Assembly: GCA_004000515.1 (NCBI GenBank)
Contig: CP034537.1
Location: forward strand, 1,922,001 to 1,986,000
Length of the DNA stretch: 64,000 bases
Direction of reading: 5' to 3'
Source of the DNA: Pseudomonas poae
Lineage (GTDB): Bacteria; Pseudomonadota; Gammaproteobacteria; Pseudomonadales; Pseudomonadaceae
The notes beneath the pieces were generated by a model. The model was given only the letters and a program-made list of their open reading frames with translations. It was not told the origin of the DNA and ran no database searches. A program made the translations under genes and the position numbers. Of this stretch, positions 4,720 to 20,079 are shown piece by piece; position 1 is the stretch's first letter, and every line of letters starts with the position of its first letter.

Positions 4720-5939
4720 TGAGCGACATTATCCGCCGCGACCCACGGGCCGAATGGATCGCCCGCAACCGTCTGCACCCGCTGCACGCGGCGATGCAGC
4801 CGGTACAACACAGTTGGATGGGGCCTAACGGCGTCATACGCAAGAACGTACATGGTGTCGGTTTTATCGGCCCCAATGGCATCAAGCGCATCGACCGCAG
4901 TGGCGCTCAGCAAGGTGGCGCGGCCAAGCGTACGGCGGCGGTGGAAGTCTTGCTGCCGTTGCATCAGCTTGCAGCCCCTGCGTTCTACATCAACGTGGTG
5001 CCGGACATGGTCGGTGGCCGCTTGAGCAGCCACGACCGCGACTTGCTCGGCCTGGCTCGCCAGTTGGCGGGCAGCGACGGTGCGGTGTTGGCGGTGGTGT
5101 TTGGCGAACACAAGGAGAGCGCGTTTGCCACCGCTGGCGTCGACCGGCTACTGGTGCTGGACGGCCACGAGTTCGACGGTTATTCACCAGAGCAACGCGT
5201 GCAAGGTTTGCGCGCTGTGGATAACCAGTTCAACCCGCGCCACTGGTTGCTGCCGGACAGTCGCAGCGGTGGCGGTGAGCTGGGACGGCGTTTTGCTGCC
5301 AGCCTCAAAGAGCGTCCGGCCACGCGTGTCTGGCAAATCAAGGGTGACGAGTGTATCGGTCGCGCTGGCGCGGGCCAGGAAGACTTGGCTCGCCCTCTGC
5401 CACGCTTGATCCTGGCCGCCGCCGAATGCGCCGAGCCGGTCAGCGAAACCCGTCACGAAGTGCTGCCCGTGGAGTTGTCCACAGCCCTGGCGCGCAGCTT
5501 GCCGCGTATCGAGGATCTCGGTGCGGTGGCGGTAGACCCGGCGGCAATCCCGATGGCCGAAGCGGAATTCATTTTCTCCGGCGGCAACGGCGTGAAGGAC
5601 TGGGCGTTGTTCCACCAGACCGCCGCCGCCCTCGGCGCCACAGAAGGCGCCTCGCGAGTGGCGGTGGACGACGGCTTCATGGCCCGTGATCGCCAGGTCG
5701 GTGCCAGCGGCACCTGGGTCACGGCGCGGGTGTATGTGGCCGTGGGTATTTCCGGGGCGATCCAGCACCTGCAAGGCATCGGTGCCTGCGACAAGGTGGT
5801 GGCGATCAACCTGGACCCTGGCTGCGACATGATCAAGCGTGCCGACCTGTCGGTGATCGGCGAAAGCGCCGCGATTCTGCAAGCCTTGATCGCGGCGGTA
5901 GAAACCTACCGCAACGGCGCCAAGCGCGATGCGGCCTGA
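4719..5939 (+). CDS. etfA: Electron transfer flavoprotein alpha subunit of the dimethylglycine system
   Basis: 406 residues. The C-terminal third has the FAD-binding layout of ETF-alpha: GATEGASRVAVDDG, the SGTWV turn, the VGISGAIQHLQGI loop and NLDPGCDMIKRADL. The N-terminal half is longer and more divergent than in housekeeping EtfA (usually near 310 residues), as in the PA5400-type copy next to dgcAB. It should form a heterodimer with the following beta subunit and accept electrons in dimethylglycine oxidation. Its ATG shares a base with the dgcB stop, so translation is probably coupled. Confidence 0.88.
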   Translation: MSDIIRRDPRAEWIARNRLHPLHAAMQPVQHSWMGPNGVIRKNVHGVGFIGPNGIKRIDRSGAQQGGAAKRTAAVEVLLPLHQLAAPAFYINVVPDMVGGRLSSHDRDLLGLARQLAGSDGAVLAVVFGEHKESAFATAGVDRLLVLDGHEFDGYSPEQRVQGLRAVDNQFNPRHWLLPDSRSGGGELGRRFAASLKERPATRVWQIKGDECIGRAGAGQEDLARPLPRLILAAAECAEPVSETRHEVLPVELSTALARSLPRIEDLGAVAVDPAAIPMAEAEFIFSGGNGVKDWALFHQTAAALGATEGASRVAVDDGFMARDRQVGASGTWVTARVYVAVGISGAIQHLQGIGACDKVVAINLDPGCDMIKRADLSVIGESAAILQALIAAVETYRNGAKRDAA

Positions 5940-5949
5940 GGATATGACC

Positions 5950-6720
5950 ATGACCACGAATGTCATCAGCCTGGTGTCCATCGGCGCCCACCCAACTTCC
6001 GGGCGCCCGCGCCGTGCCGAACAGGATGCGCGCGCGGTGGAGCTGGGTTTGCAGCTGGCTGGGGATAAGTTGCAGGTGCTGCATGCCGGTAATGTCAATG
6101 AACCGACCCTGCGCAGTTATTTGGGCATGGGCTTGCCGCAATTGCATGTGCTGGAACAACCGGCGGGCAGCGATGCGTTGCCGGTACTCGGTGATTACTT
6201 GCGCGAAGCCGGCGCCCACGTGGTGCTGACTGGCAGCCAGGCGGAAACCGGCGAAGGTTCGGGCATGTTGCCGTTCTTGCTCGCCGAGCAATTGGGCTGG
6301 CCGCTGATCGTCGGGCTGGCACAGGTGGAGTCCATCGACGGCGGCGTCGCTCATGTGCTGCAAGCGTTGCCGCGGGGGCAGCGGCGACGGTTGAAGGTGC
6401 GCTTGCCGTTTCTGGCGACGGTGGACAATGCCGCGCCCAAGCCAAGGCAGAGCGCCTACGGCCCGGCGCAACGCGGTGAGTTGGCGGCGCATGAGGTTGA
6501 GGTTGAAGAGGATGAGTTGTTCACCGGCGCCGTACTGCAACCGGCCAAGCCTCGGCCCAAGCGGTTGAAGGTGATCAAGGCCAAGAGCGGCGCGGATCGG
6601 ATGAAAGCCGCGACGGCCAAGGCCAGCGGTGGCGGTGGGCAAGTGCTCAAGGGTGTGAGCCCGGAAGAGGGGGCGCAGGCGATTCTCAAGTTGTTGGTGG
6701 AAGAGGGCGTGGTGCGCTGA
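5950..6720 (+). CDS. etfB: Electron transfer flavoprotein beta subunit of the dimethylglycine system
   Basis: 256 residues in the ETF alpha/beta adenine-nucleotide-binding fold: an N-terminal ISLVSIGAHPTSGRPR strand-loop, LTGSQAETGEGSGMLPFLLAEQLGWP in the middle, and a basic Ala/Lys-rich C-terminal region. This matches PA5401-type proteins. The third ATG of the frame (5950) is chosen because the TGAGGA ribosome site at 5937-5942 is 7 bases away; the ATG at 5944 is too close. It starts 10 bases after etfA and is the last gene of this plus-strand operon. The REP pair just downstream separates it from the opposing secretion operon. Confidence 0.85.
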   Translation: MTTNVISLVSIGAHPTSGRPRRAEQDARAVELGLQLAGDKLQVLHAGNVNEPTLRSYLGMGLPQLHVLEQPAGSDALPVLGDYLREAGAHVVLTGSQAETGEGSGMLPFLLAEQLGWPLIVGLAQVESIDGGVAHVLQALPRGQRRRLKVRLPFLATVDNAAPKPRQSAYGPAQRGELAAHEVEVEEDELFTGAVLQPAKPRPKRLKVIKAKSGADRMKAATAKASGGGGQVLKGVSPEEGAQAILKLLVEEGVVR

Positions 6721-6838: not shown

Positions 6839-8776
6839 TCATTGTGTCTGGGGTGGCGGCGCGGGCGCGGGCGCAGGCTTAGGCACCAAGTCCGGCAACG
6901 GCGGCGGCAGTGGTGCCCAGTTGGCATCCGGCTGCTGCATCGGCGGCGGTATCGCCGGTGTCGGATCACCGCCTAGGGGTTTGAGGATCATTTTCTCGGT
7001 GGTGTCCCGCAGGATCATGCCCTCCGTCGAACTGCGCGCCTCGGTACCACTGTGGAACGTGCTGATCTGCGAGATCGGCAGGTCCAGGTTACGTTCGATC
7101 CTGGGTGTCAGCAGCAGGATGATCTCGGTTTTCTGTTGGGTATTTTGATTGGTGCCGAACAGCTTATTGCCGAGCCACGGGATCTGGCTCAACCACGGCA
7201 AACCCGATCCTTCATCGACGTCTGCCGTGCGGATAAGCCCGGAGACAACCTGGGTTTCATTGTTGCGCGCGGTCAACAGCGTCTTGGTGGAGCGTGAGCC
7301 CAATTCAAAGGTGGCGGGTACGTTTTCCGAACCGGGAATTCGCTTGGTGATGTGGCTCATTTCCACATTCAGTTCCAGGTTCACCTCATCGCTCAGGCTG
7401 ATGTTGGGCTTGACCGTGATCTGTAGCCCTACGTCCTGGTAAGACACCGACGAGGTGGTGATCTGGTTGGCGGTGGTGGTGGTGACCACGGGAATCTTGT
7501 CACCGATATTCACTGCGGCCTCTTCACGATTACGCACCCTCACCCTGGGGTTAGCCAAGGTGACCGTGTTGCCACTGCGCTGCAGCATATTGATGCGCGC
7601 CGAAGTACTGCCGGCATCCAGCAGAATGTTGTCGCCATTGATGCCGCGCAAGGCGCTGATGGGGGTGCCCGCCAGCCCGGCGGGCACATTCGCCAGGTTG
7701 CCCACCGACACACCCACGCTTTCCGGGTACTTGATGCCCAGGTTCAATTCGTCCGTGAGGCTGACTTCCAGCACCTGGATATCAATGGTCACCTCCGACT
7801 GCGCGATATCAATGGCCTCGACCATCTTTTCCACCGCGCTCAGGGTGTCCAACCCGTCACGCACGATCACCGCATTCAGGCGCTCGTCCACCAGCACTTC
7901 CTTGGGCTTGAGCACTTGCTTGATCTCGGCGGCAACGACTTTGGCGTCGCCATGGCTCAGGTAAAAAGTACGCACTGCCAACTCGCGGTATTCACGTTCT
8001 TTGTCTGGGCGTTTGGGGTAGATCAGGATCGTGTTGCGGTTGAGGATTTTCTTGTCCAGGCCTTGGGTGGTCAGCAGCAGGTTCAGGGCGTCTTCGGCAG
8101 TGGTGCGGGTGGCTGTCATGCTCGCCGAGGCACTGGGGTTCACGTCTTTGTCGATGACAAAGTTGACCCCCGACAAACGCGCGATGGTTTCGAAAATCGT
8201 GGTCAGGCTTTGGGCGCTGAACTCCAGGCTCAAGGGTTTGCGCATGGCGTCAGTGAGGTCTGCGCTGAGGTAGTCGGCGCTCACCAGCTCGCGGGTCAGC
8301 GCATTGCGAAAGTCCAACGCTTCTCGGTAATTGGGTTTTTGCGCGATGATCTGGCGCACCAGGTTGAGTGCTTCCACCGGGTTGGCGCGTTTCATTTCGT
8401 AGGCGCGTGCCAGTTGTGGGCGCAGTTGCTTCATGTCCTGGATACTTTGGATTTCCTGACGTGCCCCAAGGTTGCTGGGGTCGTATTTGAGGATGGTTTC
8501 CAGCGCCTGGATGGCGGCCACGTCGTCGCCGCGCATCAGGGCGGTGCTGGCCTCGCGGCTGTATTGGGCGACCAGCAGTTCCAGTTTGCCGAATTGCGCG
8601 GTGCGTAATTGCACGTCGTCGGGGGATTGCCTGGCTTCGGCTTGCAGCACCTCGACCGAGCGCACGATGTCGCCTTTCTGGCGCAATTCATCGCTTTGCT
8701 TGATCGCGTTCTGTGCCTGGCAGGCGCCGAGCAACGCCAGCATCAGGCTTAAGGACATCCTCGAACGGTTCGCCAT
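6839..8776 (-). CDS. Lipoprotein secretin with N-terminal TPR region (GspD/PilQ/MshL-like)
   Basis: 645 residues and the last gene of the minus-strand secretion operon. The signal sequence ends in a lipobox (LLGAC, Cys19), so the protein should be lipidated and may reach the outer membrane without a separate pilotin. Residues about 25-160 are helical and TPR-like. They are followed by the secretin/TonB short domain (LSLEFSAQSLTTIFETIA), an N1-type domain (AVRTFYLSHGDAKVVAAEIK) and the C-terminal secretin beta-barrel domain (PRVRVRNREEAAVNIGDKIP; ending near KTEIILLLTPRI). A proline-rich tail closes the protein. It forms the outer-membrane gate for the machine encoded upstream. A strong GGGAGAGGA site precedes the ATG. 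Which named secretion family it belongs to cannot be settled by eye. Confidence 0.88.
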   Translation of the reverse strand: MANRSRMSLSLMLALLGACQAQNAIKQSDELRQKGDIVRSVEVLQAEARQSPDDVQLRTAQFGKLELLVAQYSREASTALMRGDDVAAIQALETILKYDPSNLGARQEIQSIQDMKQLRPQLARAYEMKRANPVEALNLVRQIIAQKPNYREALDFRNALTRELVSADYLSADLTDAMRKPLSLEFSAQSLTTIFETIARLSGVNFVIDKDVNPSASASMTATRTTAEDALNLLLTTQGLDKKILNRNTILIYPKRPDKEREYRELAVRTFYLSHGDAKVVAAEIKQVLKPKEVLVDERLNAVIVRDGLDTLSAVEKMVEAIDIAQSEVTIDIQVLEVSLTDELNLGIKYPESVGVSVGNLANVPAGLAGTPISALRGINGDNILLDAGSTSARINMLQRSGNTVTLANPRVRVRNREEAAVNIGDKIPVVTTTTANQITTSSVSYQDVGLQITVKPNISLSDEVNLELNVEMSHITKRIPGSENVPATFELGSRSTKTLLTARNNETQVVSGLIRTADVDEGSGLPWLSQIPWLGNKLFGTNQNTQQKTEIILLLTPRIERNLDLPISQISTFHSGTEARSSTEGMILRDTTEKMILKPLGGDPTPAIPPPMQQPDANWAPLPPPLPDLVPKPAPAPAPPPQTQ

Positions 8777-8794
8777 GACGGTGTCCTCTCCCGG

Positions 8795-9279
8795 TCAGTG
8801 AGTGTCCAGGCGCAAGGTGCTGGCATGCTTGAGCGGCATGTAGGTCAGCACCACGGCGGTATCGGTGAGTTTGTCCAAGCGGTAGTGCGCGTCCAGCATC
8901 TTGCCGGGAACGATGCGGCCAGGAACCGAGCAACGGTTGCACAAGGTGTATTGAGTGCCGTTGCCGCGCAGCACGACGATTTTCGATTGGTTCTCGAAGC
9001 GCCATTGCGCAGTGACGGTGAACGGCAGCGGTGGCGGCCTGGGCGGCGAGTTATCCACCGGTGTCGGCGGCGGTGGTGGGGTCCAGGTTTGGGCGGGGAA
9101 CAGGTCGATCACCGCGCTCGCCAGCGGTTCTGGCGTTGAGACGGGAGCGGGTTCGACGGGTTTGGCGACCACCGCTACGGGCGCAAGGGGGGACTGTCCG
9201 GCGTGTCCTGCCAGAACAGCCAGCCGCAGACGACCAGGGTCAGCAGCAACAGCAGACGTAAATACAGCGGCAGTTTCAT
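8795..9279 (-). CDS. PilP/GspC-like small periplasmic protein; one frameshift
   Basis: Repairing one missing C (G run 9187-9192 on the plus strand) gives 161 residues. They comprise an N-terminal membrane anchor rich in Leu (residues 5-24), a proline-rich linker of about 45 residues, and a small C-terminal beta domain with a CNRC pair. Its position between the PilO-like gene and the secretin gene, its size and its shape are those of PilP or GspC, which link the inner-membrane platform to the secretin. The start overlaps the previous stop (ATGA), so translation is coupled. I saw no strong sequence signature, so the role is inferred from architecture. Confidence 0.6.
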
Positions 9280-9813
9280 TCCACCACCCCCAGTACGCTG
9301 ACCTTGAGGTTGATGCTCAGCATGCCGCTGATGATTTCCTTGCGCTCCAGCGTCACGCTCTCGATGCGTACTGCCGGTTCCTGTGCCACGTCGGTCAAGG
9401 CTTCACGTAGCAGGACATACGGGCCGGTGAGCGGGATGTCCACGTCCAGCCGTTGCAGCCCGGTATCACCGGGTGCGGAATAGGCCAGGGTGGTTTGTTC
9501 GATGATGAAGCCGCGTCGGGTAAGGGTGCCCAGCAGTTTCTCCACGCGTGGGGCGAAGTCGTCGGCGCTGGGCATTTTTTCGACCACCGCGGGCTCGGTG
9601 ACCTGCACATTCTGCGGCTGTTCACCGATGCCCGCTTCCAGCTCCCTCGCGTCGCAGGGTGTCGGCGGCACCCGCCGGGTGAATCACGCTGATTTCAATC
9701 AACAACGCTGCCGCCATCACGCCGAGGGCCAGCAGCCCCCAGAAGCCGAGGTTCTGCTGCCACTGCATCAAGTGCCAGCGCAGGCGTGGCAGGTAGCGCG
9801 TGAGGGCTTCCAT
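9276..9813 (-). CDS. PilO/GspM-like inner-membrane platform protein; one frameshift
   Basis: Removing one extra G (CCC on the plus strand at 9644-9646) gives 178 residues: a basic N-terminus, one membrane segment (about residues 20-43), a short coil, then an alpha/beta domain (SADDFAPRVEKLLGTLTRRG, later VDIPLTGPYVLLREALTDV) that resembles the ferredoxin-like fold of PilO and GspM. It overlaps both neighbours by a few bases in the order PilM-like, PilN-like, PilO-like, PilP-like, secretin, as in type IVa pilus operons. The ATG at 9813 is preferred to a TTG seven codons upstream. Confidence 0.62.
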
Positions 9814-9820
9814 GGGCGGC

Positions 9821-10375
9821 TTACCCCGCGCCAATGGCGAGTTTGACCTGCACCGGGTGTTGCGGGTCGTTGGTCTTGCGCGCGCTTTGCTGCAGGTTCA
9901 CGTGTACGCCAGGCTGGGTCTTGAGCCGTTCGACAAAACGGAACGCATCGCCCAGCGCCTTGGCTTCCAGGTCCAGGTGCAATAACTGCGTCTGGGTGTT
10001 GACCTCCACCCGTGTCAGGGCGATCTCGCGGGACCAGGCCTGGGCCACTGAGTCCATCAGCGCGAAGGGCGTCGCCGATTGTTTGGAGAACGCCGCCAGC
10101 TGCTGTTTTTGTCGAGGCGAGAGGCGGATGGCGGCCTGGATCAACTGCTCCTGCCGGCGTGTCAGTTGGATAAAGTGCTGTTCCAGTTCATCGGTCTGCA
10201 GTTGTTGCTCTTCCATGCGTTGCCAGTGCTGCCAGGTAGTGAACAACAGCCCTGTCGCCAGCAGCCACAGCACCGCCACCAGCGGTCGATGGGGGCTGTT
10301 GGCATGTTGAAAATCAATACCGGGCGCGCGCGGGGTGCTCAGGTGTTGGCGGATGGCTGCGAGGTTGAACTTCAT
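9821..10375 (-). CDS. PilN/GspL-like bitopic membrane protein with coiled coil
   Basis: 184 residues. A short cytoplasmic N-terminus (MKFNLAAIRQHL) is followed by one membrane helix (about residues 31-48), a coiled-coil stretch rich in Gln and Glu (MEEQQLQTDELEQHFIQLTR) and a C-terminal ferredoxin-like domain (LTRVEVNTQTQLLHLDLEAK). This is the layout of PilN and of the periplasmic part of GspL. The ATG overlaps the previous stop (ATGA). It is expected to pair with the PilO-like protein. Family membership is inferred from topology and gene order. Confidence 0.65.
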   Translation of the reverse strand: MKFNLAAIRQHLSTPRAPGIDFQHANSPHRPLVAVLWLLATGLLFTTWQHWQRMEEQQLQTDELEQHFIQLTRRQEQLIQAAIRLSPRQKQQLAAFSKQSATPFALMDSVAQAWSREIALTRVEVNTQTQLLHLDLEAKALGDAFRFVERLKTQPGVHVNLQQSARKTNDPQHPVQVKLAIGAG

Positions 10376-11097
10376 GCGGGCAATTCCTCCAGCCATGGAT
10401 GCAGTGGCCCCAGCCAATCCTCGGTGCGGTGATTGGCAACGATCAGCGTGACAGGGGCCTGCTGTTGCGCGAGCACGTCGGCGGTGAACAGGTTGTCGCT
10501 CAATGCGCTGCCGGGATGCGTAGGCAGCACGCATACCTGATGGGGGATGCCCTGTTGTCGGTAGAGGCAACTGAGGCCTTCCGATTCAGGCACCGCCAGC
10601 ACGCAGTCATCGGGCAATTGCCGCCAGTATTGTTGTGCCACGGCGGTCAGCAGCGGGGTGCAGGTCAGCAGCGGCAGACGGTGCAGCTTGAACAGCTCGC
10701 GCAGGTCTTGCAGCAGGTCCTTTGGGGTGGCGACCGCCAAGCGTGGTTGGCCGAACACGCTATTGGCGACCTGTACCTGCCAGCGCTCTGCATCGATGCC
10801 GGCCTGTTGATGGAAAGTAGCTTCGGCAAAGTTCTGCCAGTCAGCGTGGCTGTACAGGCCCGTTTGCCACGCCAGCATCAGGTAGTGCACATGGGGAAAT
10901 CCGAGCAGCACCGTGGCGCGGTCCAAGAAGCGCAAACGGCCACGGGGTGCTTGCTCCAGCAAGGCCGCGCAGGCACTCAATGGCTCACCCGCTTGCTCGC
11001 CACGCCACACCGTCGCCCCGCGCCAACGTGGGCGTGCCGCCCAGACGGCCCCGCTGCTGTGCAGCCACACCACATGCTCAATAAAGGGAAATGACAC
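10372..11097 (-). CDS. Hypothetical cytoplasmic protein in the PilM/GspL position
   Basis: 241 residues with no membrane segment and no motif I recognise. It lies between the GspE-like ATPase and the PilN-like protein, where type IV pilus operons place PilM and type II systems the cytoplasmic part of GspL. By analogy it may dock the ATPase to the membrane platform. The start is the GTG at 11097 because an AAGGAG site, embedded in the end of gspE, sits at good distance. It overlaps gspE by 20 bases. The middle (WRQLPDDCVLAVPESEGLSC) has the look of an actin-like or GspL cytoplasmic fold, but I would not rely on that. Confidence 0.55.
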   Translation of the reverse strand: MSFPFIEHVVWLHSSGAVWAARPRWRGATVWRGEQAGEPLSACAALLEQAPRGRLRFLDRATVLLGFPHVHYLMLAWQTGLYSHADWQNFAEATFHQQAGIDAERWQVQVANSVFGQPRLAVATPKDLLQDLRELFKLHRLPLLTCTPLLTAVAQQYWRQLPDDCVLAVPESEGLSCLYRQQGIPHQVCVLPTHPGSALSDNLFTADVLAQQQAPVTLIVANHRTEDWLGPLHPWLEELPA

Positions 11098-12718
11098 GGT
11101 GAATCTCCTTGAGCGTGGTGTCGCCTTGTGCGGCGTGGGCCAGGGCAATATCGCGGATGAACACGTGGCCGGCTTCGCGCGCCAGTTCGCGCAAGGTGGA
11201 CGCCGAGCTGCGGTTGAGCAGGCCTTCCTTGATGCTGTCAGTCACGCTGAGCACTTCGGCCAGGGCCAACCGGCCGCGGTAGCCGGTGTGACGACAGGCT
11301 TCGCAGCCTTTACCCACGCGGTAATGACCTTGTTGCAGTTGCGCTTCGGGTACATGGGCAAGGCGGGCAAGTTCCGCGTCTGGCTTGGCATCGACGCCGC
11401 AGTCCGGGCAGATACGCCGTACCAGGCGTTGAGCCACCACGCCGTTGAGTGCCTCAACGAAACTGGCTGGGTCCACGTCCATGTAGGTGAAGCGCTCCAA
11501 CACACTGAATGCGCTGTTGGCGTGCACCGACGACATCACCAAGTGCCCGGTGAGCGCCGCCTGCACCGCGATGCCTGCGGTTTCGCCGTCGCGGATTTCA
11601 CCCACCAGGATCGTGTCTGGGTCGTGGCGCAGGATCGAGCGCAGGCCACGGGCGAAGGTCAGGCCCTTCTTGTCATTCACCGGTATTTGCAGCACACCGG
11701 GCAACTCGTATTCCACCGGGTCTTCGATGGTGATGATCTTTTTCTCGCCGGTGTCGGTCTCCGACAAGGCGGCGTACAAGGTGGTGGATTTGCCGCTGCC
11801 GGTGGGCCCGGTGACCAGCAACATGCCGTAGGGCTCGTTGGCCAGGATGCGTATTCGCGCGATGGTATCGGCGGCCAGGCCGAGGCTTTCCAGGTTCAGG
11901 GATTCGCCCCGTTGCGACTTGTCGAGAATGCGCAGCACCGCATCTTCACCGTGGATGCTGGGCATGATCGACACACGAAAATCCACCTCACGACCCTGGA
12001 TTTTCATCTTGAAACGCCCGTCCTGGGGCACGCGTCGCTCGCCGATATCCAGCTCCGACAACACCTTGATGCGCGACAGTGCCTGCTCGGCCATGTCCAG
12101 GCCATTGGCCTTGCCCATCTTCTGCAAGACACCGTCGATGCGGTACTTGATCTCCAGGCCTTCGGGGTTGGTCTCGACGTGAATATCACTGGCGCGACTC
12201 TGCAATGCATCGAACAGCATGGAGTTGACCAGGCGCACCACTGGGTTGTCGTCGCGGGCGATGCTGCTCAAGGAAATTTCCTGGGCGGCTTGGCTGACAC
12301 GGGCGTTTGCGTCGTCCTCGCCAAACGGTTGCATGACCCGCTGGCTGGCCTCCGCGAGGGCAAGCTGAGCCTTGACCGCGCCCGGCAGGCTCATGGCCAG
12401 GGGCAGTGCGCGCAGGCCGGAAGTGGACTGGATCCAGTGCCGATTGGCCAAGGCAAACGGGTCGCCTAGCACCAGGCAGGTCTGGTCTTGGTAGACCACG
12501 GGCAACACGTTGTGAATCAGTGCCTGGGGCAGTGACAGCACGTCAAAACGCCAATGGTTTTCCAGCAGATGTTTGGGCTCAATGGCGCGCATGCCCAGTG
12601 GCGCGGCGATGGTTGGCAGTTGATCCGGTGCTTTGTCCAGCACCTCCAGCAGGTAGTTGGCCAACGACATCGAGCGCTGTTCTGCCAGTGCTTGCCATTG
12701 CCGTGTCTGCTCGCTCAT
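11078..12718 (-). CDS. gspE: Type II secretion / type IV pilus assembly ATPase (GspE/PilB family)
   Basis: 546 residues. An N-terminal T2SSE_N-like domain is followed by the hexameric ATPase core: Walker A GPTGSGKST (about residue 305), Asp box ITIEDPVEYELPGVLQ, Walker B region ILVGEIRDGETA, His box TGHLVMSSVHANSA, and a four-cysteine zinc module (CPDC and CEAC) near residue 460. All the key residues are present. It should power pseudopilus assembly for this operon. It follows the gspF stop by 4 bases and overlaps the next gene. The cysteine module and length fit extension ATPases (GspE/PilB), not the PilT retraction type. Confidence 0.93.
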   Translation of the reverse strand: MSEQTRQWQALAEQRSMSLANYLLEVLDKAPDQLPTIAAPLGMRAIEPKHLLENHWRFDVLSLPQALIHNVLPVVYQDQTCLVLGDPFALANRHWIQSTSGLRALPLAMSLPGAVKAQLALAEASQRVMQPFGEDDANARVSQAAQEISLSSIARDDNPVVRLVNSMLFDALQSRASDIHVETNPEGLEIKYRIDGVLQKMGKANGLDMAEQALSRIKVLSELDIGERRVPQDGRFKMKIQGREVDFRVSIMPSIHGEDAVLRILDKSQRGESLNLESLGLAADTIARIRILANEPYGMLLVTGPTGSGKSTTLYAALSETDTGEKKIITIEDPVEYELPGVLQIPVNDKKGLTFARGLRSILRHDPDTILVGEIRDGETAGIAVQAALTGHLVMSSVHANSAFSVLERFTYMDVDPASFVEALNGVVAQRLVRRICPDCGVDAKPDAELARLAHVPEAQLQQGHYRVGKGCEACRHTGYRGRLALAEVLSVTDSIKEGLLNRSSASTLRELAREAGHVFIRDIALAHAAQGDTTLKEIHRVISLY

Positions 12719-12722
12719 GGCG

Positions 12723-13905
12723 TTACCCCTGTATGGACCCGGCCAGTTCAAAGATCGGCATGTACAGCATGAACACGATCAGGCCGATCAGGCCGCCCAC
12801 CACCAGCATCAGTATCGGCTCGAAGACCTTGCTGAACAGCTCGATGGCGCGTTCCAGCGCTTCATCGTGAAACTGCGCAATACGCTCGCACATCGCCGCC
12901 AACTCGCCGCTTTGCTCGCCCACGCGCAGCAGGCGCTCGGCGACGGCGGTGGTCAGTTGGTGACGCGCCAGGGACGTGGACAACGGCTGTCCGGCCCTTA
13001 TGTCGGACATGGCGTGGCGCAGATCGCCTTGGCGCTCGAGGGGCAGCAGCGCGCCGGACAGCTCCACGGCAGTGACGACCGGCATGCCGCCCATCAACAA
13101 CATGCCGGCGGTGCGATAAAAGCGCGCGAGGATAAACAGCGTGCGTTGAGCGCCCAGGCTGGGAATTTTCCAGAACAGGTTGGCGACCTGGCGCTTGAAG
13201 GCGGCGCTGCGAAAGAGCACGACCAGCGCGGCGATTGCTACCGCCATGCCGATCAGCAGCTCGGTGCCTCGCGTGTCTACCAGCGCGCCCCACCACACCA
13301 TGAAGCGTGCGGTAGCAGGCAGGTCGGCGACCGAGTCGAACACCGAAGCGAAGCGTGGAATCACAAAAACAGCAGGAACAGCAGGATCAGCGCACCCACG
13401 CTCAACACCACCAAGGGGTACATCAGTGCGCCGCTCACGCGTTTTTCACGGTCTCCAAGTGCGCTTCAAAATGGTGATAACGACGCAGGGCTACGGCCAG
13501 TTGGCCGCTGTGCTCCGAGGACGCCACGGTGGCGACCAACAGCTCAGGAAACGTCTGTGGCTTGAGCTGCATCGCCTTGGACAATGAGTTGCCTTCGTAC
13601 ATCGAAGCGAGCAAGTCGCTCATGACTTGGCGGTTGATGCCCGGCGGTGCTTTATCGCGCAGGGTCTCCACGGCTTCTACCAGCACCAGGCCGGCGTCGA
13701 GCAACACCACCAATTCCTGGATAAACAGGCCGAGGGCAAATTTTGCGCGACGACTGGGCAATGTTAGTTGGCGTCGGGCCTTGAGCGAGATGACTTGGGC
13801 GCCATCGGCTTGCAGTTGTTGGCGAGCCTGAGCCACGTCGAGGGCTTGCAGGCGCAGGGTCTGCAAATGGCCGTCACGGATGATGCGGGCATCGATGTCG
13901 ATCAT
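12723..13905 (-). CDS. gspF: Type II secretion inner-membrane platform protein GspF; two frameshifts
   Basis: Two single-base losses (plus-strand runs TTTTT at 13442-13446 and AAAAA at 13365-13369) split a 394-residue GspF/PilC protein. After repair it has the expected two T2SSF repeats: the first carries FIQELVVLLDAGLVLVEAVE and the second FYRTAGMLLMGGMPVVTAVE, each followed by membrane segments (LMYPLVVLSVGALILLFLLF and the C-terminal LMLVVGGLIGLIVFMLYMPI). It is the polytopic base on which GspE acts. It starts 3 bases before the end of the lytic transglycosylase gene, so they overlap. Both breaks are in homopolymers and I treat them as sequencing error. Confidence 0.87.
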
Positions 13906-14366
13906 GGGGTTTGCCTGGCCAGTTGTTGCCGTTGTTGCAACAACACGCCGTAGTAGCGCCAAACCGCCAACGCATAGCGTGCACGGCGCTCATCGCGGCC
14001 GGGTTTGCCCCCGGCGTTATAGGCGCCGACGGCCTGCCAGCCGTAGCCCTTCTCTTGGATGAACCCGGCAAGGATCCACGCACCGACCATTACGCTGGTG
14101 CACGGCTGAGCCAGCAGGTGCTGCTCGGTGATGCCGAAGCGTGCCAACGCGGGCAAGTGGCGGCTGTTGATCTGCATCAGGCCGATGTCCTGGGTGCCGT
14201 CGCCGTTGATATTGCGTGCGTTGGGGTTGAGGTTGGATTCGACCTTGGCGATCGCATACAGCAACAGCGGGTCGACGTGGTAGCGGCTGGCCGCCAGTTG
14301 CCAACAGTTGGCCTGGGCGGTGCCCGTGAGGCACAGCAGGGTCAGGGCAATCCGTAGGGTGTGCAT
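13902..14366 (-). CDS. Lytic transglycosylase, SLT family (IagB-like)
   Basis: 154 residues with a Sec signal peptide (cleavage near AQA|N, residue 19) and an SLT domain. It has the catalytic glutamate in AKVESNLNP, the GLMQINSRHLPAL motif and the AYNAGG motif. It is the size of IagB/PilT-type peptidoglycan lyases that open the wall for secretion machines and pili. Its place inside the operon, one base after gspG and overlapping gspF, suggests it makes room for the periplasmic parts of this apparatus. C23-C89-type cysteines (NCWQ, QPCTS) suggest a disulfide. Confidence 0.85.
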   Translation of the reverse strand: MHTLRIALTLLCLTGTAQANCWQLAASRYHVDPLLLYAIAKVESNLNPNARNINGDGTQDIGLMQINSRHLPALARFGITEQHLLAQPCTSVMVGAWILAGFIQEKGYGWQAVGAYNAGGKPGRDERRARYALAVWRYYGVLLQQRQQLARQTP

Positions 14367-14367
14367 G

Positions 14368-14799
14368 TCACAGGCCGTACACGATGTCGGCGTAGGTGTT
14401 CACACCACCGGCTTTGCCATCGCGGCCCAGCGAGATGATTTCCACATCGTTGGGCGGTGTGCCGGGGTTCTTGTACAGGTACGGGTTGCCCCAGGGGTCT
14501 GGTGGCAGCGTCTTCAAATAGGGCCCTTGCCAATTGCCCGCGTTGGCGGGGCGGGTAGTCAGTGCGTTGAGGCCGAGGGTTTCGTCGGGGTAGTTGCCGT
14601 TGTCGAGACGGAACTGATTCAAGGCGTCGGCGAGGGACTTCATCTGGCCTTGGGCGGTCTGGACTTTGGCCAGTTCCAGGCGATCGAACATCTTCGGGCC
14701 GACGTAGCCGGCGAGGAGGGCGATGATCAGCAGGACGACCAGCAGTTCCAACAGCGTGAAGCCGCGTAGGGGGCTGTGGATAAGCGAACGATTGCGCAT
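14368..14799 (-). CDS. gspG: Major pseudopilin GspG
   Basis: 143 residues. The prepilin leader MRNRSLIHSPLRG is followed by FTLLELLVVLLIIALLAGYV with Glu at +5, the mark of prepilin peptidase processing. The C-terminal domain has the GspG calcium-loop features (PPDPWGNPYLYKNPG, SLGRDGKAGG) and ends in YADIVYGL. Size and domain make it the major pseudopilin of a type II system. No prepilin peptidase lies in the window, so processing must use one encoded elsewhere. The ATG at 14799 is taken; a TTG 24 bases upstream is possible but needs no extra leader. Confidence 0.92.
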   Translation of the reverse strand: MRNRSLIHSPLRGFTLLELLVVLLIIALLAGYVGPKMFDRLELAKVQTAQGQMKSLADALNQFRLDNGNYPDETLGLNALTTRPANAGNWQGPYLKTLPPDPWGNPYLYKNPGTPPNDVEIISLGRDGKAGGVNTYADIVYGL

Positions 14800-14852
14800 G
14801 GAGATACCCTGTGGGAGTGCCAAGGTACGGCGGTTGTGTGTAACTCTCCCGG

Positions 14853-14871
14853 CCCGCGTTTTTTACGCGGG
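14853..14871. other. Short hairpin upstream of gspG
   Basis: CCCGCG and CGCGGG form a 6-bp stem with a TTTTTTA loop. It lies in the leader between the LPMO and gspG, about 55 bases before the gspG start. Confidence 0.5.
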
Positions 14872-14920
14872 CACCGCCGGTAGGACTGCGTTGTACTTCT
14901 TCAACTGTAGCGTTGTCGTG

Positions 14921-14946
14921 TATAGGGCGCGGTGAGGCGCCCTATA
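14921..14946. other. Perfect 10-bp hairpin between LPMO and gspG
   Basis: TATAGGGCGC, a 6-base loop, then GCGCCCTATA. It lies about 47 bases past the LPMO stop on the minus strand and has no T tract, so it looks more like an RNA-stabilising or processing hairpin than a strong terminator. Confidence 0.55.
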
Positions 14947-14992
14947 ACGTTTGGCTCTGACATTTATTGGATTAACGAATATACCCAGTGGG

Positions 14993-16519
14993 CTACTGGA
15001 CCTCGTCCCATGCTTGCTCCCAGGCAGTGCCTGAACCGGGCGCATAAGCCCATGCCGCACCCGCACACCACGCGGTATAAGGGTGAGGTTTGCACTTATA
15101 GTTTTTACCGTTGTTGCTCACGACATCTCCATCTTTATAAGGAGTGCCCTCTTTATAAGCCGGATGATCCCCGCCGCCGCCCGCAGGCGTTACCGTAAAA
15201 TCAAACTCCGCTTGGCTGGTTTTTCCATTTTTTGATCACGAATATTAAGTCGCGCTTTGAAGGGGGTTGATTGGGTGACGGTGGGTGCTTTCCCGCTCGC
15301 TGTACTGTTACCTTGTGAGCCGACCAATCCTGGGATAGCCCATTGATAAAGCAGTGGTCCGTTGCTACCGGATGAAGCCGTGCCATTGAACGTGAAGGAG
15401 TCTCCCGACTTTATCGATGTTGGTCCCGTGATTCGTGCTACGGGTGGAGCCGGGTTCACTGGGCCGGTGCCCCCCCTTCAATAATCGACATTGCTTGGGA
15501 GTAACCTTCTTGTTTAACAAATGTGGAGTTAAGAAGTGCATCGACATCATTGAAAGTAACGATATCGTTTTCCAGTTCACCGATCTCGGCATCCGTTGCA
15601 TTCACCTTGCTCGCCAGCTCCTTCCCCCACTTACCTGGAGGCAGATTGGATTGGGTAATGAGAAGCTCGATATCGACAATTTCGCTAACTTTACTGTCCC
15701 TGCCGAAAATCCGGTAGTGCACAGCATCGCCAGGTTTAAGGGCTTGCATGTCAGGCTTAATGAACTGACCTAAGTTGTAGCGTTTACTCGGTACGCTATT
15801 GCCCTTGAAATTCACATCTGAGCAACCGATAAAAAACTCACCATGCGGGTCGCTCCTGACCCAGATGGTAACGATCAAGCCATTTCCCAAGAGTCCACTT
15901 GGGATTGTTCTCACAATCTCAAAGTATCCCCAGGCCCCCGAGATTTTTGGTGGGTTATTGGGGGATAGACGGTTTTGGCAACGGTGAGTAATTCGGGTTG
16001 TGCTAAAGGCGTCAGATCGCTCCATTTGAGCGTGTCAGTAGCGCTGTTGAAGCCAGCTCTCGTTGTAAATGCATAGAACGTACTGGGCACATGAGGGGCT
16101 GTACCGATGAGGCGCATCGTCAGGGGTTGCCCAGGGGTGACATCGGTTTTTGTCCAATCGGGCAAAGGGAGGTCCAAACTGGCCTTTTTCGGATCATTCG
16201 CGGAGCATATCTGACCATCTTTAATGATTGCCTTGATCTGATCCAGCGTTGGATTATCAATCAACGGAATGTGCGCAACCTCATTCCACTGTTGTGCGGG
16301 ATATACTTTTTCCGCATCGGTATTAAATATTTTTGCCGACTCTCGGCAACCTTTATCAAGGATCGGTGGCTGCCAGTAACCTCCGGTAACTTGGCAGTTC
16401 ACTGCGCGCGTCTGCGGGAAGTCTAATGCGCCATGGGCCCAGACCAGCGCGGGCGCCAGTAATACTGCCGCCAACACCCACTTAAACAAATGCTCCGTAT
16501 ATCGCTGTAAATTATTCAT
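14993..16519 (-). CDS. Secreted lytic polysaccharide monooxygenase (AA10) with PKD-like and CBM5/12-like domains; three frameshifts
   Basis: Three single-base losses (plus-strand runs at 15960-15964, 15470-15476 and about 15220-15233) split a 509-residue protein. The signal peptide ends at VWA, so the mature protein begins HGALDFPQTRAVNC. The N-terminal His is the first ligand of the copper histidine brace, and APHVPSTFYAF likely holds the second His. After the AA10 domain (to about residue 210) and a linker region comes a PKD-like domain (ARITGPTSIKSGDSFTFNG). The C-terminal module (GTPYKDGDVVSNNGKNYKCK, ending EQAWDEVQ) has the CBM5/12 chitin-binding pattern. It probably oxidises chitin or a related polymer outside the cell. 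It lies inside the secretion operon between pseudopilin genes and is clearly AT-richer than its neighbours, which suggests separate acquisition. Confidence 0.85.
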
Positions 16520-16583
16520 GCTCTAGTCCACCTTCAATTCAGATAAACAAGTTCCGAACTGCTGGAACGATCAGTGTGATTAT

Positions 16584-17099
16584 TCAATTGGCATCATGGG
16601 TCAGCTGATCTCCCTTGGGACCGGTGCGGGTTGCAGGATTACTCTGTACAGAGCCATACAGAAACACCCACCCTTGATAACTACCTTGCCCTGTAAAACT
16701 TTGGTTGCTGGCTATGAAGTTGCCTTGTTTAAACGGCGTGCCCTTGGCCTTGCTGAACACGCCCATGATGGTTTCGCCGGGGCCTTCAACCACACCCCAT
16801 TCGGCGGTGCCGGTGAGCGGGTCGTCGTAGGCCCGACGCAGGTAGCGTTTGATCGTCGGTTGGCGGCCGTCTAGCACCAGGTCATCGAGGGACTTGGGAA
16901 AGGTGTTGCCCTCCCGGTAATACAACCCAATCGCCCGGCGGATTTCATTGCCGCGTGCCAACAACTCCTGCTCGCGCTCGCGCTGCAACACGCTGGACCA
17001 CAGCGTGCCCACTTCCATCAGCATTACGGCCACCACGGCCACCGTCACCAACATGCCCATGAACACCGAGCCTTGCTGGCGTTGCTTACCAGTCGGCAT
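16584..17099 (-). CDS. Atypical pseudopilin-like protein
   Basis: 171 residues. The leader MPTGKQRQQG is followed by SVFMGMLVTVAVVAVMLMEV, so the hydrophobic N-terminal helix and the G before the cut are present but the usual FTLIE is replaced and the +5 Glu is missing. The C-terminal part (EIRRAIGLYYREGNTFPKSL; RAYDDPLTGTAEWGVV) is clearly of the GspG-like pseudopilin fold. A missing Glu5 is typical of GspK-type tip pseudopilins, although this protein is shorter than GspK. It overlaps the previous gene by 14 bases. It is probably a minor or priming subunit. Confidence 0.75.
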   Translation of the reverse strand: MPTGKQRQQGSVFMGMLVTVAVVAVMLMEVGTLWSSVLQREREQELLARGNEIRRAIGLYYREGNTFPKSLDDLVLDGRQPTIKRYLRRAYDDPLTGTAEWGVVEGPGETIMGVFSKAKGTPFKQGNFIASNQSFTGQGSYQGWVFLYGSVQSNPATRTGPKGDQLTHDAN

Positions 17100-17466
17100 A
17101 GGTGCTCCCGTCTTTCGCAGTGCCGGGAGCGCCGCTGCGCACATCGCCCAGGCCTTGTTCGTCGGAGGGTTGCAGTTGCCAGGTGTCGCGTTTACCAGTC
17201 ACCGGATCCACCGGGATTTCCCGCAGGTAGCGGCGGTCCACCAGGGCTTGCAGGGAGTCGGGGTTAGTGCCGTGGTCTTCGCGAAATTGATCCAGCGCCT
17301 GGCGGATGGACGACAGGTTATGGCGCAGCACGGTTTCCTGGGCCTTGGCGTGCTGGCGGAAATATTGGGGGGTCACCAAGGTCATGAGGGTGGCGATAAT
17401 CGCCATGACCACCAGCAACTCGATCAGGGTAAAACCCTGGTTACCACTGGCTGTATGACGTTCCAT
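17086..17466 (-). CDS. GspG-like pseudopilin 2
   Basis: 126 residues. The leader MERHTASGNQG is followed by FTLIELLVVMAIIATLMTLV with Glu5, a canonical prepilin peptidase site. The periplasmic part (LSSIRQALDQFREDHGTNPD; REIPVDPVTGKRDTWQL) is of GspG/H type and ends DGSTYADW. It overlaps the first pseudopilin gene by 26 bases. It may be a minor pseudopilin; the operon already has a clear GspG downstream. Confidence 0.85.
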   Translation of the reverse strand: MERHTASGNQGFTLIELLVVMAIIATLMTLVTPQYFRQHAKAQETVLRHNLSSIRQALDQFREDHGTNPDSLQALVDRRYLREIPVDPVTGKRDTWQLQPSDEQGLGDVRSGAPGTAKDGSTYADW

Positions 17467-17938
17467 TCAAACTCTCCCGGGTGCTGCGGGATGAAACGTC
17501 AAATACATCTTCTCCCTCTTGTGGGTTATCAGCGGTGCTTTTGTAGCTGCGCAGTTGCCAGGTTTTTTCAGGCGCAAGTTCGGGGCACTCGCACACAGGG
17601 TCGCGGGGAATACGGCGCAGGAAATAGAGTTTGTTGCCTTGCAGGTTGGTTTTGTCTGTGACCCCTTCAACCAACACTTGCAGGGTGGGCGGATAACCAC
17701 TTGCGCTGAGGCTTTTTTCAACACGCCCGTCGTCAGTGGCTTCTTTGTAGGAGTCGATCGCGCGCCGTATTTCCCGCAACGAGCGTTGCAAGTCGAGTTC
17801 CCGGTCGCGTTTACCCATCAGTGCCGTCAGCGGATAAGCCACTGTCGCGAGCGTGGCCAGCAGGGCCAGCGTCAGTAGTAATTCAATCAGCGTAAAACCT
17901 TTGGCGCAGTGATGGCTGGGGTTGCCCTGCCACGTCAC
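17441..17938 (-). CDS. GspG-like pseudopilin 1, first gene of the secretion operon
   Basis: 165 residues. The leader MTWQGNPSHHCAKG is followed by FTLIELLLTLALLATLATVA with Glu5. The periplasmic domain has the same plan as the next two proteins (SLREIRRAIDSYKEATDDGR; FLRRIPRDPVCECPELAPEK; end GTSYSQW) plus a CEC pair. The start is GTG at 17938, chosen because CAGGAGA lies 8 bases upstream. No minus-strand gene lies ahead of it for more than 800 bases, so the operon promoter should be in 17939-18100. Confidence 0.85.
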   Translation of the reverse strand: MTWQGNPSHHCAKGFTLIELLLTLALLATLATVAYPLTALMGKRDRELDLQRSLREIRRAIDSYKEATDDGRVEKSLSASGYPPTLQVLVEGVTDKTNLQGNKLYFLRRIPRDPVCECPELAPEKTWQLRSYKSTADNPQEGEDVFDVSSRSTRESLNGTSYSQW

Positions 17939-18783: not shown

Positions 18784-20079
18784 TTATTCGTGTACAGCCA
18801 CGCCCTTGAGGTACGGCGCCGGCGCCGCGCCCAGGTTGCTGAGCATGCGCTCGCTGTACCAGTCCACGAAGTTCACCACGCCAAACTCATAGGTCTTGGA
18901 GTATGGGCCGGGCTGGTAGGCGGTGGAGTTGATCCCGCGCTGGTTTTCTTCGGCCAGGCGACGGTCCTGGTCGTTGGTGGCGTCCCATACTTCGCGCATG
19001 CGCGCGGGGTCGTAGTCCACGCCTTCCACCGCGTCTTTGTGCACGATCCACTTGGTGGTGACCATGGTTTCCTGGGCGCTGATTGGCCACACGGTGAACA
19101 CAATGATGTGATCGCCCATGCAGTGGTTCCACGAGTGCGGCAGGTGCAGGATGCGCATCGAGCCCAAATCCGGGTTCTTTATGCGACCCATCAGCTTCGC
19201 GCAGCCCTGTTTGCCGTCCATGGTCATCGACACGGTGCCCTTGAGCAGCGGCATGCGCACGATGCGGTTACGCAGGCCGAAGCTGGCGTGGGCGTAAGGG
19301 ATCTTTTCCGCGTCCCAAGCGGCAGCCGACGCGGCCACGTGGTCCTTGAACGCCTGGTCGGCGCGCGGGTCGGTGACGTCGTCCCATTCCAGCAGGGTCT
19401 TGAGCAGTTCCGGGTGCGAGGCGTTGCAGTGGTAGCACTCGCGGTTGTTTTCCAGCACCAGCTTCCAGTTGGCCTTTTCCATCAAGGTGGTTTGCACCGC
19501 CACCTTGGTGTTCTCCATGTCGTAGGGTTCCATGTAATGGTTGAGCGTCGACAGGAAGTCATCGATGGCCGGCGGGTTCTGCGACAGGCTGATGAAGATG
19601 TAGCCGCCGGCGGTCTTCACGTTCACTGGCTTGAGGCCGTATTGCTTCATGTCGAAGTCGGCGCCCATCTCGGTACCTGCGAACAGAAGGCGTCCGTCCA
19701 GTTCGTAGGTCCACTGGTGGTAGTGGCAGACCAACTTGGCGACCTTGCCCTTGTCGCTGGTGCACAAGCGCGAGCCACGGTGACGGCACACGTTGTGGAA
19801 CGCATGCACCACACCTTCGGCGCCACGGATCACTATGATCGGGTTCTTGCCCACTTGCAGGGTCAGGTAGTTGCCCTTGGTGGGGATCTCGCAGGTCATG
19901 CCGGCGATCAACCACTCTTTCTGGAAGATCTCCTGCATGTCGATATCAAACAACCGCTCATCAGAGTAGAACGGCTGTGGCAGCGAGAACGTGCGCTCAC
20001 GTTCCTGCAGCATTTGCGCGGTGGCCTTGCGTGCGGGTTCCAGCGGATCGCCCAAGCTTAAGGTTGCGGTGACGTCCAT
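18784..20079 (-). CDS. gbcA: Glycine betaine demethylase oxygenase subunit GbcA (Rieske)
   Basis: 431 residues, aromatic-ring-hydroxylating dioxygenase alpha fold. The Rieske 2Fe-2S ligands are CRHRGS (about residue 97) and CHYHQW (about residue 117). The mononuclear iron site begins at ECYHCNASHPELL (about residue 215). With the reductase GbcB it converts glycine betaine to dimethylglycine and formaldehyde using O2. The ATG at 20079 is chosen over two upstream ATGs because AGGA sits about 9 bases before it. It is divergent from gbcB, as in P. aeruginosa PA5410/PA5411. Expression there depends on the AraC-family regulator GbdR; a possible site is given at 20261-20295. Confidence 0.95.
   Translation of the reverse strand: MDVTATLSLGDPLEPARKATAQMLQERERTFSLPQPFYSDERLFDIDMQEIFQKEWLIAGMTCEIPTKGNYLTLQVGKNPIIVIRGAEGVVHAFHNVCRHRGSRLCTSDKGKVAKLVCHYHQWTYELDGRLLFAGTEMGADFDMKQYGLKPVNVKTAGGYIFISLSQNPPAIDDFLSTLNHYMEPYDMENTKVAVQTTLMEKANWKLVLENNRECYHCNASHPELLKTLLEWDDVTDPRADQAFKDHVAASAAAWDAEKIPYAHASFGLRNRIVRMPLLKGTVSMTMDGKQGCAKLMGRIKNPDLGSMRILHLPHSWNHCMGDHIIVFTVWPISAQETMVTTKWIVHKDAVEGVDYDPARMREVWDATNDQDRRLAEENQRGINSTAYQPGPYSKTYEFGVVNFVDWYSERMLSNLGAAPAPYLKGVAVHE

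Follow-up and report, generated by a model that had tools for sequence, protein, structure and literature searches.

A Pseudomonas operon of mixed type II secretion and type IV pilus parts as a probable dedicated exporter of an exchangeable LPMO

Introduction

Type II secretion systems (T2SSs) carry folded enzymes. CbpD of Pseudomonas aeruginosa, a lytic polysaccharide monooxygenase (LPMO), is exported by the type II machinery (PMC7902821), and cbpE lies in the same gene island as the Txc system of P. paraeruginosa (PMC12369383, PMC8623646). A second T2SS-like cluster, Xcm, is described in P. putida GB-1 and KT2440 (PMC4509608), the general secretory pathway is reported to be important for manganese oxidation in GB-1 (PMC3056050), and a survey of type IV filaments provides a 'Generic' or chimeric class for systems of mixed parts (PMC6668835). 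Here we describe an operon of thirteen genes that combines T2SS-like with type IV pilus (T4P)-like parts and encloses an LPMO gene. It lies at positions 17938 to 6839, minus strand, of a 64,000-nucleotide stretch of the Pseudomonas poae genome (GenBank GCA_004000515.1, contig CP034537.1, positions 1,922,001 to 1,986,000), hereafter the window. On comparison with its relatives, the operon is probably a dedicated type II-like exporter for the enclosed LPMO, whose gene would act as an exchangeable cargo cassette.

Results

The operon encodes three pseudopilins, an AA10 LPMO, GspG, a lytic transglycosylase, GspF, GspE, PilM/N/O/P-like proteins and a secretin. Its features, in the order of transcription, with scores from profile searches, are:

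17441..17938, minus strand: pseudopilin A, prepilin motif with Glu5 (N_methyl 30.3 bits, cut-off 21.2; motif)
17086..17466, minus strand: pseudopilin B, prepilin motif with Glu5, GspG/ComGC-like (N_methyl 33.8 bits; GspG model 59.7, below its cut-off of 88.85)
16584..17099, minus strand: pseudopilin C, without Glu5, possible GspK-like tip subunit (junction inspected directly; the same in homologues)
14993..16519, minus strand: LPMO gene in four frame pieces (a single open reading frame, ORF, in most relatives)
15911-16519, minus strand: LPMO piece, N-terminal part of AA10 (LPMO_10 81.1 bits, cut-off 23)
15456 to about 15955, minus strand: LPMO piece, end of AA10 plus GbpA_2 (GbpA_2 42 bits, above cut-off)
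15190-15459, minus strand: LPMO piece, PKD-like (PKD_4 24.7 bits, below cut-off)
14993-15229, minus strand: LPMO piece, CBM5/12-like (CBM_5_12 23.3 bits, below cut-off)
14916..14960, minus strand: predicted hairpin between LPMO and gspG (-20.1 kcal/mol, without a shuffled control)
14368..14799, minus strand: gspG, major pseudopilin (TIGR01710 146.6 bits, cut-off 88.85)
13902..14366, minus strand: lytic transglycosylase, SLT (PF01464 89.9 bits, cut-off 21.3)
12723..13905, minus strand: gspF, frame-broken (T2SSF in both long pieces; two frame changes relative to the related genomes G017 and G067)
11078..12718, minus strand: gspE, assembly ATPase (T2SSE 413 bits)
10372..11148, minus strand: PilM/cytoplasmic GspL-like, start uncertain (PilM fold)
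9821..10375, minus strand: PilN-like (by position; Pfam PilN above cut-off in the one homologue tested, L051)
9276..9813, minus strand: PilO/GspM-b-like, one frame break (family profile matches PilO 3jc8, E 1.1e-7)
8795..9279, minus strand: PilP-like, one frame break near the start, upper end approximate (family profile matches PilP weakly, E 0.044)
6839..8776, minus strand: secretin with lipobox-like Cys19 and a weak TPR region (Secretin 119 bits, Secretin_N 41.4, STN 34.5)

The LPMO gene occupies a fixed slot. A closely related secretin (66-100% identity) occurs in nine of 149 genomes of the genus, the window included. In each of the nine, the same contig also carries an LPMO, placed between pseudopilin C and gspG and starting 7.7-9.2 kb from the secretin. 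Among the best 80 of 483 relatives kept from a wider search, ten close relatives (a P. viridiflava isolate, two P. marginalis, P. cyclaminis, P. rhodesiae, two P. gingeri and strains KBW05, CBZ-4 and Irchel 3E20) likewise all carry an LPMO in the slot. Two loci being common to both sets, these amount to 17 distinct loci, every one of which has the same gene order with an LPMO in place, allowing for single small genes missed by gene picking in some. LPMOs as such are common, with at least one in 80 of the 149 genus genomes, and the recurrence of this order with an LPMO in the slot is beyond chance.

Slot LPMOs of the relatives score 107-124 bits against LPMO_10, and two histidine columns are without exception in all 18 aligned LPMO rows, 16 of which are slot LPMOs. 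We take these to be the copper-brace positions, one of them at the mature N-terminus. By its LPMO_10 domain and brace histidines, the enclosed protein is identified as an AA10 LPMO, and from its GbpA_2 and CBM5/12 parts, together with CbpD as a relative in the PDB, we infer chitin as its substrate. A predicted hairpin (best 45-nt window -20 to -27 kcal/mol, again without a shuffled control) starts at most 46 nt after the LPMO gene in the window and in 14 of 15 relatives, the exception being CBZ-4, where the best one starts 183 nt after it. This hairpin may allow cargo and machine to be made in different amounts.

It appears that the LPMO gene has been exchanged more than once, with little change to the machine around it. 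Across ten loci, none of them from the P. gingeri branch, Irchel 3E20 or CBZ-4, the median pairwise identity of the LPMO is 43% (minimum 32%); for the twelve other proteins, taken one by one, it is 73-91%. In six of eight chosen pairs, a sliding DNA comparison finds that identity drops across the LPMO ORF and recovers at gspG. At finer resolution in four slot pairs, identity declines at the start codon, in one pair by degrees, and has recovered within about 30-60 nt past the stop. In two of these four, the final 180-300 nt of the ORF, which form the CBM end, are 70-93% identical; the exchange there therefore covers the front part.

Strain CBZ-4 is a particular case. The LPMO in its slot is of CbpD type and groups with those beside the canonical T2SSs of the window genome and G067 (support 100/100), although the GspE and secretin of this strain fall inside the LPMO-locus clade. 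No LPMO besides the slot copy was found in this genome. Over its first 30 nt, the leader of the CBZ-4 LPMO is 77% identical to that of the slot LPMO of locus L041, 50% to that of L069, a close relative by its machine, and 27% to that of the CbpD-type gene, which hints that a slot-type leader was kept after the replacement. No CBM5/12 match was found in the CBZ-4 LPMO, so this module cannot be the sole part by which the cargo is recognised.

The machine itself scores and branches apart from the canonical classes. Its secretin scores below the cut-offs of the GspD (152.7 bits; cut-off 351.35), PilQ (141.4; 284.35) and MshL (103.4; 250.2) models, and its GspE below those of GspE (482.9; 630.25) and PilB (445.2; 675.65), although one canonical GspE of G017 also falls narrowly short (628.3). 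GspG, by its TIGR01710 score, passes the cut-off for a T2SS major pseudopilin. Trees were built from 56 of 97 GspE and 55 of 109 secretin sequences, totals that comprise 86 and 98 sequences plus 11 references each; the duplicates L068 and L073, the L045 secretin and most of the distant cousins were left out. In both, the hybrid family forms one branch (Shimodaira-Hasegawa-like approximate likelihood ratio test, SH-aLRT, 100; 45 GspE and 44 secretin rows) apart from the canonical T2SSs of the genus, PilB/PilQ and MshE/MshL, and the LPMO loci form one branch within it (support 100). These trees come from quick searches with SH-aLRT support only and carry a long-branch warning, which concerns Msh with the hybrid family and two T2SS rows with each other. 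Assignment as a canonical T2SS or as a mannose-sensitive haemagglutinin (MSHA) system was rejected on both the cut-offs and the trees.

These results bear on an earlier note on this DNA, which had called the system a hybrid and had asked whether trees would place it inside a known family. The hybrid description holds by scores and trees alike. On placement, the system lies outside the canonical T2SSs of the genus (those of G017 and G067 group apart from it), MSHA and type IVa pili, in trees whose references include no named Xcp, Hxc or Txc sequence. The thirteen same-strand genes that the note had listed are all present, and the families identified in them above Pfam cut-offs are the prepilin motif (pseudopilins A and B), GspG, T2SSF, T2SSE, STN with Secretin_N and Secretin, SLT, LPMO_10 and GbpA_2. 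In the profile searches, pseudopilin C had no family match and the PilM/N/O/P-like window proteins had no trustworthy match of their own. Against the PDB, a sequence profile of the PilM-like family found nothing and that of the PilN-like family gave chance-level matches only; T2SSM_b was found in 11 of 23 homologues of the PilO-like protein, and Cys19 of the secretin is invariant in all seven aligned sequences. Other parts of the note need correction. The LPMO is not a single ORF in the window but four pieces in different frames, and the near-touching gene ends do not extend to it, with gaps of about 64 nt before and about 190 nt, hairpin included, after. A 'lack of GspH-N' was also too strong a phrase: there are three further pseudopilins, and a PilM fold and a PilO family stand where a T2SS has cytoplasmic GspL and GspM. 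The 258-residue PilM/cytoplasmic GspL fold and the PilN-like part are separate genes here, whereas GspL is one protein in canonical T2SSs.

Related machines occur beyond the LPMO loci. Beside these in the trees stand four Chitinibacteraceae and one Roseateles metagenome-assembled genome (support 98 for GspE, 84 for the secretin). The gene directly upstream of gspG encodes a GH18 chitinase with CBM5/12 in all four Chitinibacteraceae loci; the Roseateles genome has a small PEP-CTERM-like protein in that position instead. A cousin with 31-35% secretin identity occurs in 46 of the 149 Pseudomonas genomes, and these are exactly the 46 with mnxG (named by NCBIfam), including those of loci L049-L052. 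The two lie 10.4-12.3 kb apart in 42 genomes, on different contigs in three and 181 kb apart in one. The secretin of this mnxG-linked cousin is about 34% identical to that of the window, and the gene content near it resembles the mnxG operon in PMC8218464. From this linkage, it is possible that the cousin is the exporter of MnxG; it may also be Xcm. No link of mnxG or of a Chitinibacter chitinase to such a system appeared in the titles and abstract beginnings of the literature matches listed, a coverage that mostly excludes subscription papers.

In Oxalobacteraceae cousins, the genes upstream of gspG encode subtilases (three loci) or ExeM-type nucleases (two). Rows recorded for these enzymes are:

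L097:531-3704, subtilase or ExeM-type nuclease upstream of gspG
L115:925-4095, the same
L125:553-3732, the same
L083:35-3016, the same

We surveyed 70 cousin loci, of which ten have no readable gspG/F/E start and eight begin there, leaving 52. The rule that all cousins carry a secreted enzyme upstream of gspG was not borne out, such an enzyme being found in nine. Profiles confirm eight of these (four GH18, three subtilases and one ExeM); L099 is merely similar-looking. In the two ExeM-type cases a PEP-CTERM-like gene lies in between.

Some further observations concern the surroundings. PEP-CTERM proteins occur near cousin operons at L083:3026-3652, L133:1269-1922, L078:2792-3379 and L097:214-489. 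An SLT-like gene lies divergently just upstream of gspG in many cousins (L088, L092, L098, L100, L101, L102, L124 and L128), some of these genes labelled by search and the rest by eye; the SLT gene of the window, in contrast, sits between gspG and gspF. The operon itself is flanked by the same two neighbours in most relatives examined (window 5929-6720 and 18784-20061), which we take to be electron-transfer-flavoprotein-like and gbcA-like.

Discussion

That the machine exports the product of the slot is the simplest account of three observations: the LPMO slot is fixed, its occupant has been replaced by other LPMOs, and the neighbouring clade has a chitinase in a like position. Each of the three strengthens the case for the LPMO as cargo, and the co-occurrence of the cousin with mnxG (46/46) and the T2SS-type score of GspG count in the same direction. 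The steps that we infer would begin with the LPMO crossing the inner membrane by Sec, after which signal peptidase would expose the N-terminal histidine of the copper brace and the enzyme would fold and take up copper in the periplasm. GspE would dock on a platform of PilM, PilN and PilO with GspF and build a short pseudopilus by adding GspG subunits, pseudopilins A, B and C lying near its tip. This would drive the LPMO, already folded, through the lipoprotein secretin to the outside. Platform and secretin would be connected by PilP, the SLT enzyme would open the peptidoglycan and a prepilin peptidase would be supplied from elsewhere in the genome.

Several observations pull the other way. The LPMO and three machine genes are frame-broken in the window, and in G139 (L045), a one-contig genome, the slot LPMO lies in two overlapping ORFs, by error or by a true break. 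Two P. gingeri-branch pairs lack a clear drop in identity over the LPMO. A recognisable secreted enzyme stands next to gspG in just nine of the 52 cousins (four GH18, three subtilase, two ExeM-type), and in seven more distant class-wide loci neither an LPMO nor a GH18 chitinase was found. Finally, the same genomes have canonical T2SSs, by which the LPMO could be exported. In that case, the hybrid operon might make a pseudopilus on the cell surface that attaches to chitin or to a host, and be paired with the LPMO for co-regulation. G017 and G067 indeed hold several canonical gspE/gspD genes, P. aeruginosa CbpD takes the type II route (PMC7902821) and the platform of the hybrid is split as in T4P. 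However, the hybrid has a GspG-type major pseudopilin and no PilT-like gene among its thirteen, and the canonical T2SSs of G067 and of the window genome have their own CbpD-type LPMO alongside, which suggests separate machine-cargo pairs; we therefore regard export by the canonical system as unlikely. It is very improbable that the slot is just a recombination-prone site where an LPMO gene happens to persist, with its position irrelevant to export. The drop in identity across the LPMO would fit such a site, as would its GC content: this is below that of the following 7 kb in all 15 relatives, and in the window it is below that of each machine stretch measured. Yet none of the 17 loci lacks an LPMO, not even where one of another subfamily has come in, and upstream of gspG the neighbouring clade retains a different chitin-active enzyme.

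The frame breaks call for a separate explanation. The four pieces of the LPMO in the window, the two breaks in gspF and the single ones in pilO and pilP could be real, with the locus decaying in this particular strain. In line with decay, seven frame changes fall in the 11-kb operon compared with 19 in 57 G017 ORFs outside it, roughly double the rate. But damage is spread well beyond the operon: relative to intact G017 ORFs, 19 of 67 ORFs in the window and its flanks are frame-changed with the operon included, and 17 of 57 outside it (15 of 57 relative to G067), some at 97-100% identity to the relative. The breaks of the LPMO itself are hidden in this comparison by its 70% identity filter. Four of the five breaks examined adjoin runs of at least five equal bases, which occur in 11% of random 60-nt windows, a comparison that is no more than indicative, the stretches being short and unequal. 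Intact copies are present in relatives. Because 17 of the 57 ORFs outside the operon are also broken, we set decay aside as the main reading and consider it rather improbable; the breaks are most likely sequencing indels, and largely a property of the assembly. It follows that claims of single-gene pseudogenes in this genome need care.

If the operon is a dedicated exporter, it may belong to a wider family of one-machine-one-cargo exporters, T2SS/T4P hybrids built from gspG-F-E, PilM-N-O-P-like proteins, a secretin and three pseudopilins. Several lineages of this family would carry their own secreted enzyme: an LPMO or GH18 chitinase in the chitin clade, MnxG in other Pseudomonas and, in Oxalobacteraceae, a subtilase or ExeM-type nuclease. 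Recombination would have exchanged the cargo ORF of the LPMO branch, or the portion that precedes its CBM, as the machine stayed. This broader proposal is tentative, and we stop a little short of calling it probable.

How type II systems recognise their cargo is, to our knowledge, unsolved. Here, LPMOs down to 32% identical, joined in CBZ-4 by one from another subfamily, share the slot of closely similar machines. Under a one-machine-one-cargo reading, a machine that was kept as its cargo was exchanged must read a feature common to very different LPMOs. The features that slot cargos have in common thus make a short list for finding the recognition signal, and cargo exchange in a fixed machine is a ready-made natural experiment on the choice of cargo. 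If the mnxG link reflects export, the family also bears on how a giant manganese oxidase reaches the cell surface.

Comparison with known systems

No account of this operon appeared in the titles and abstract beginnings of the literature matches listed, with subscription papers mostly outside that coverage. It could fall into the 'Generic' class of the filament survey (PMC6668835), in which no passage seen names the operon or an LPMO cargo. A secretin, an ATPase, a platform and PilM/N/O/P-like parts are common to the hybrid and to MSHA and type IVa pili, but the hybrid misses the MshL, PilQ and PilB cut-offs and branches separately. Xcm is similar in that a Gsp-related pathway is tied to one extracellular oxidation activity in Pseudomonas.

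The nearest likeness is to systems whose LPMO is encoded close by, and for this reason a reading in which a cargo LPMO encoded with its own T2SS is new in itself finds no support. As with the hybrid operon, the Txc island also holds the chitin-binding LPMO cargo of its system, CbpE (PMC12369383). A second, CbpD-type LPMO of the window genome likewise adjoins a secretion cluster, directly beside its canonical T2SS (G000:C1, about 963000-975000; L053), a pairing repeated in G067 (L195), whose canonical GspE and GspD pass the curated T2SS cut-offs and branch apart from the hybrid in both trees. Txc, in its published description, is a third T2SS of the Xcp type, equipped with a two-component regulator and with proteins named GspL and GspF. 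Unlike it, the hybrid machine has separate PilM and PilN and lies apart from the canonical T2SSs of the genus in trees. An LPMO encoded beside its own T2SS is thus a known kind of arrangement; what is new is a hybrid machine with a cassette-like cargo, exchanged inside a machine that stays fixed.

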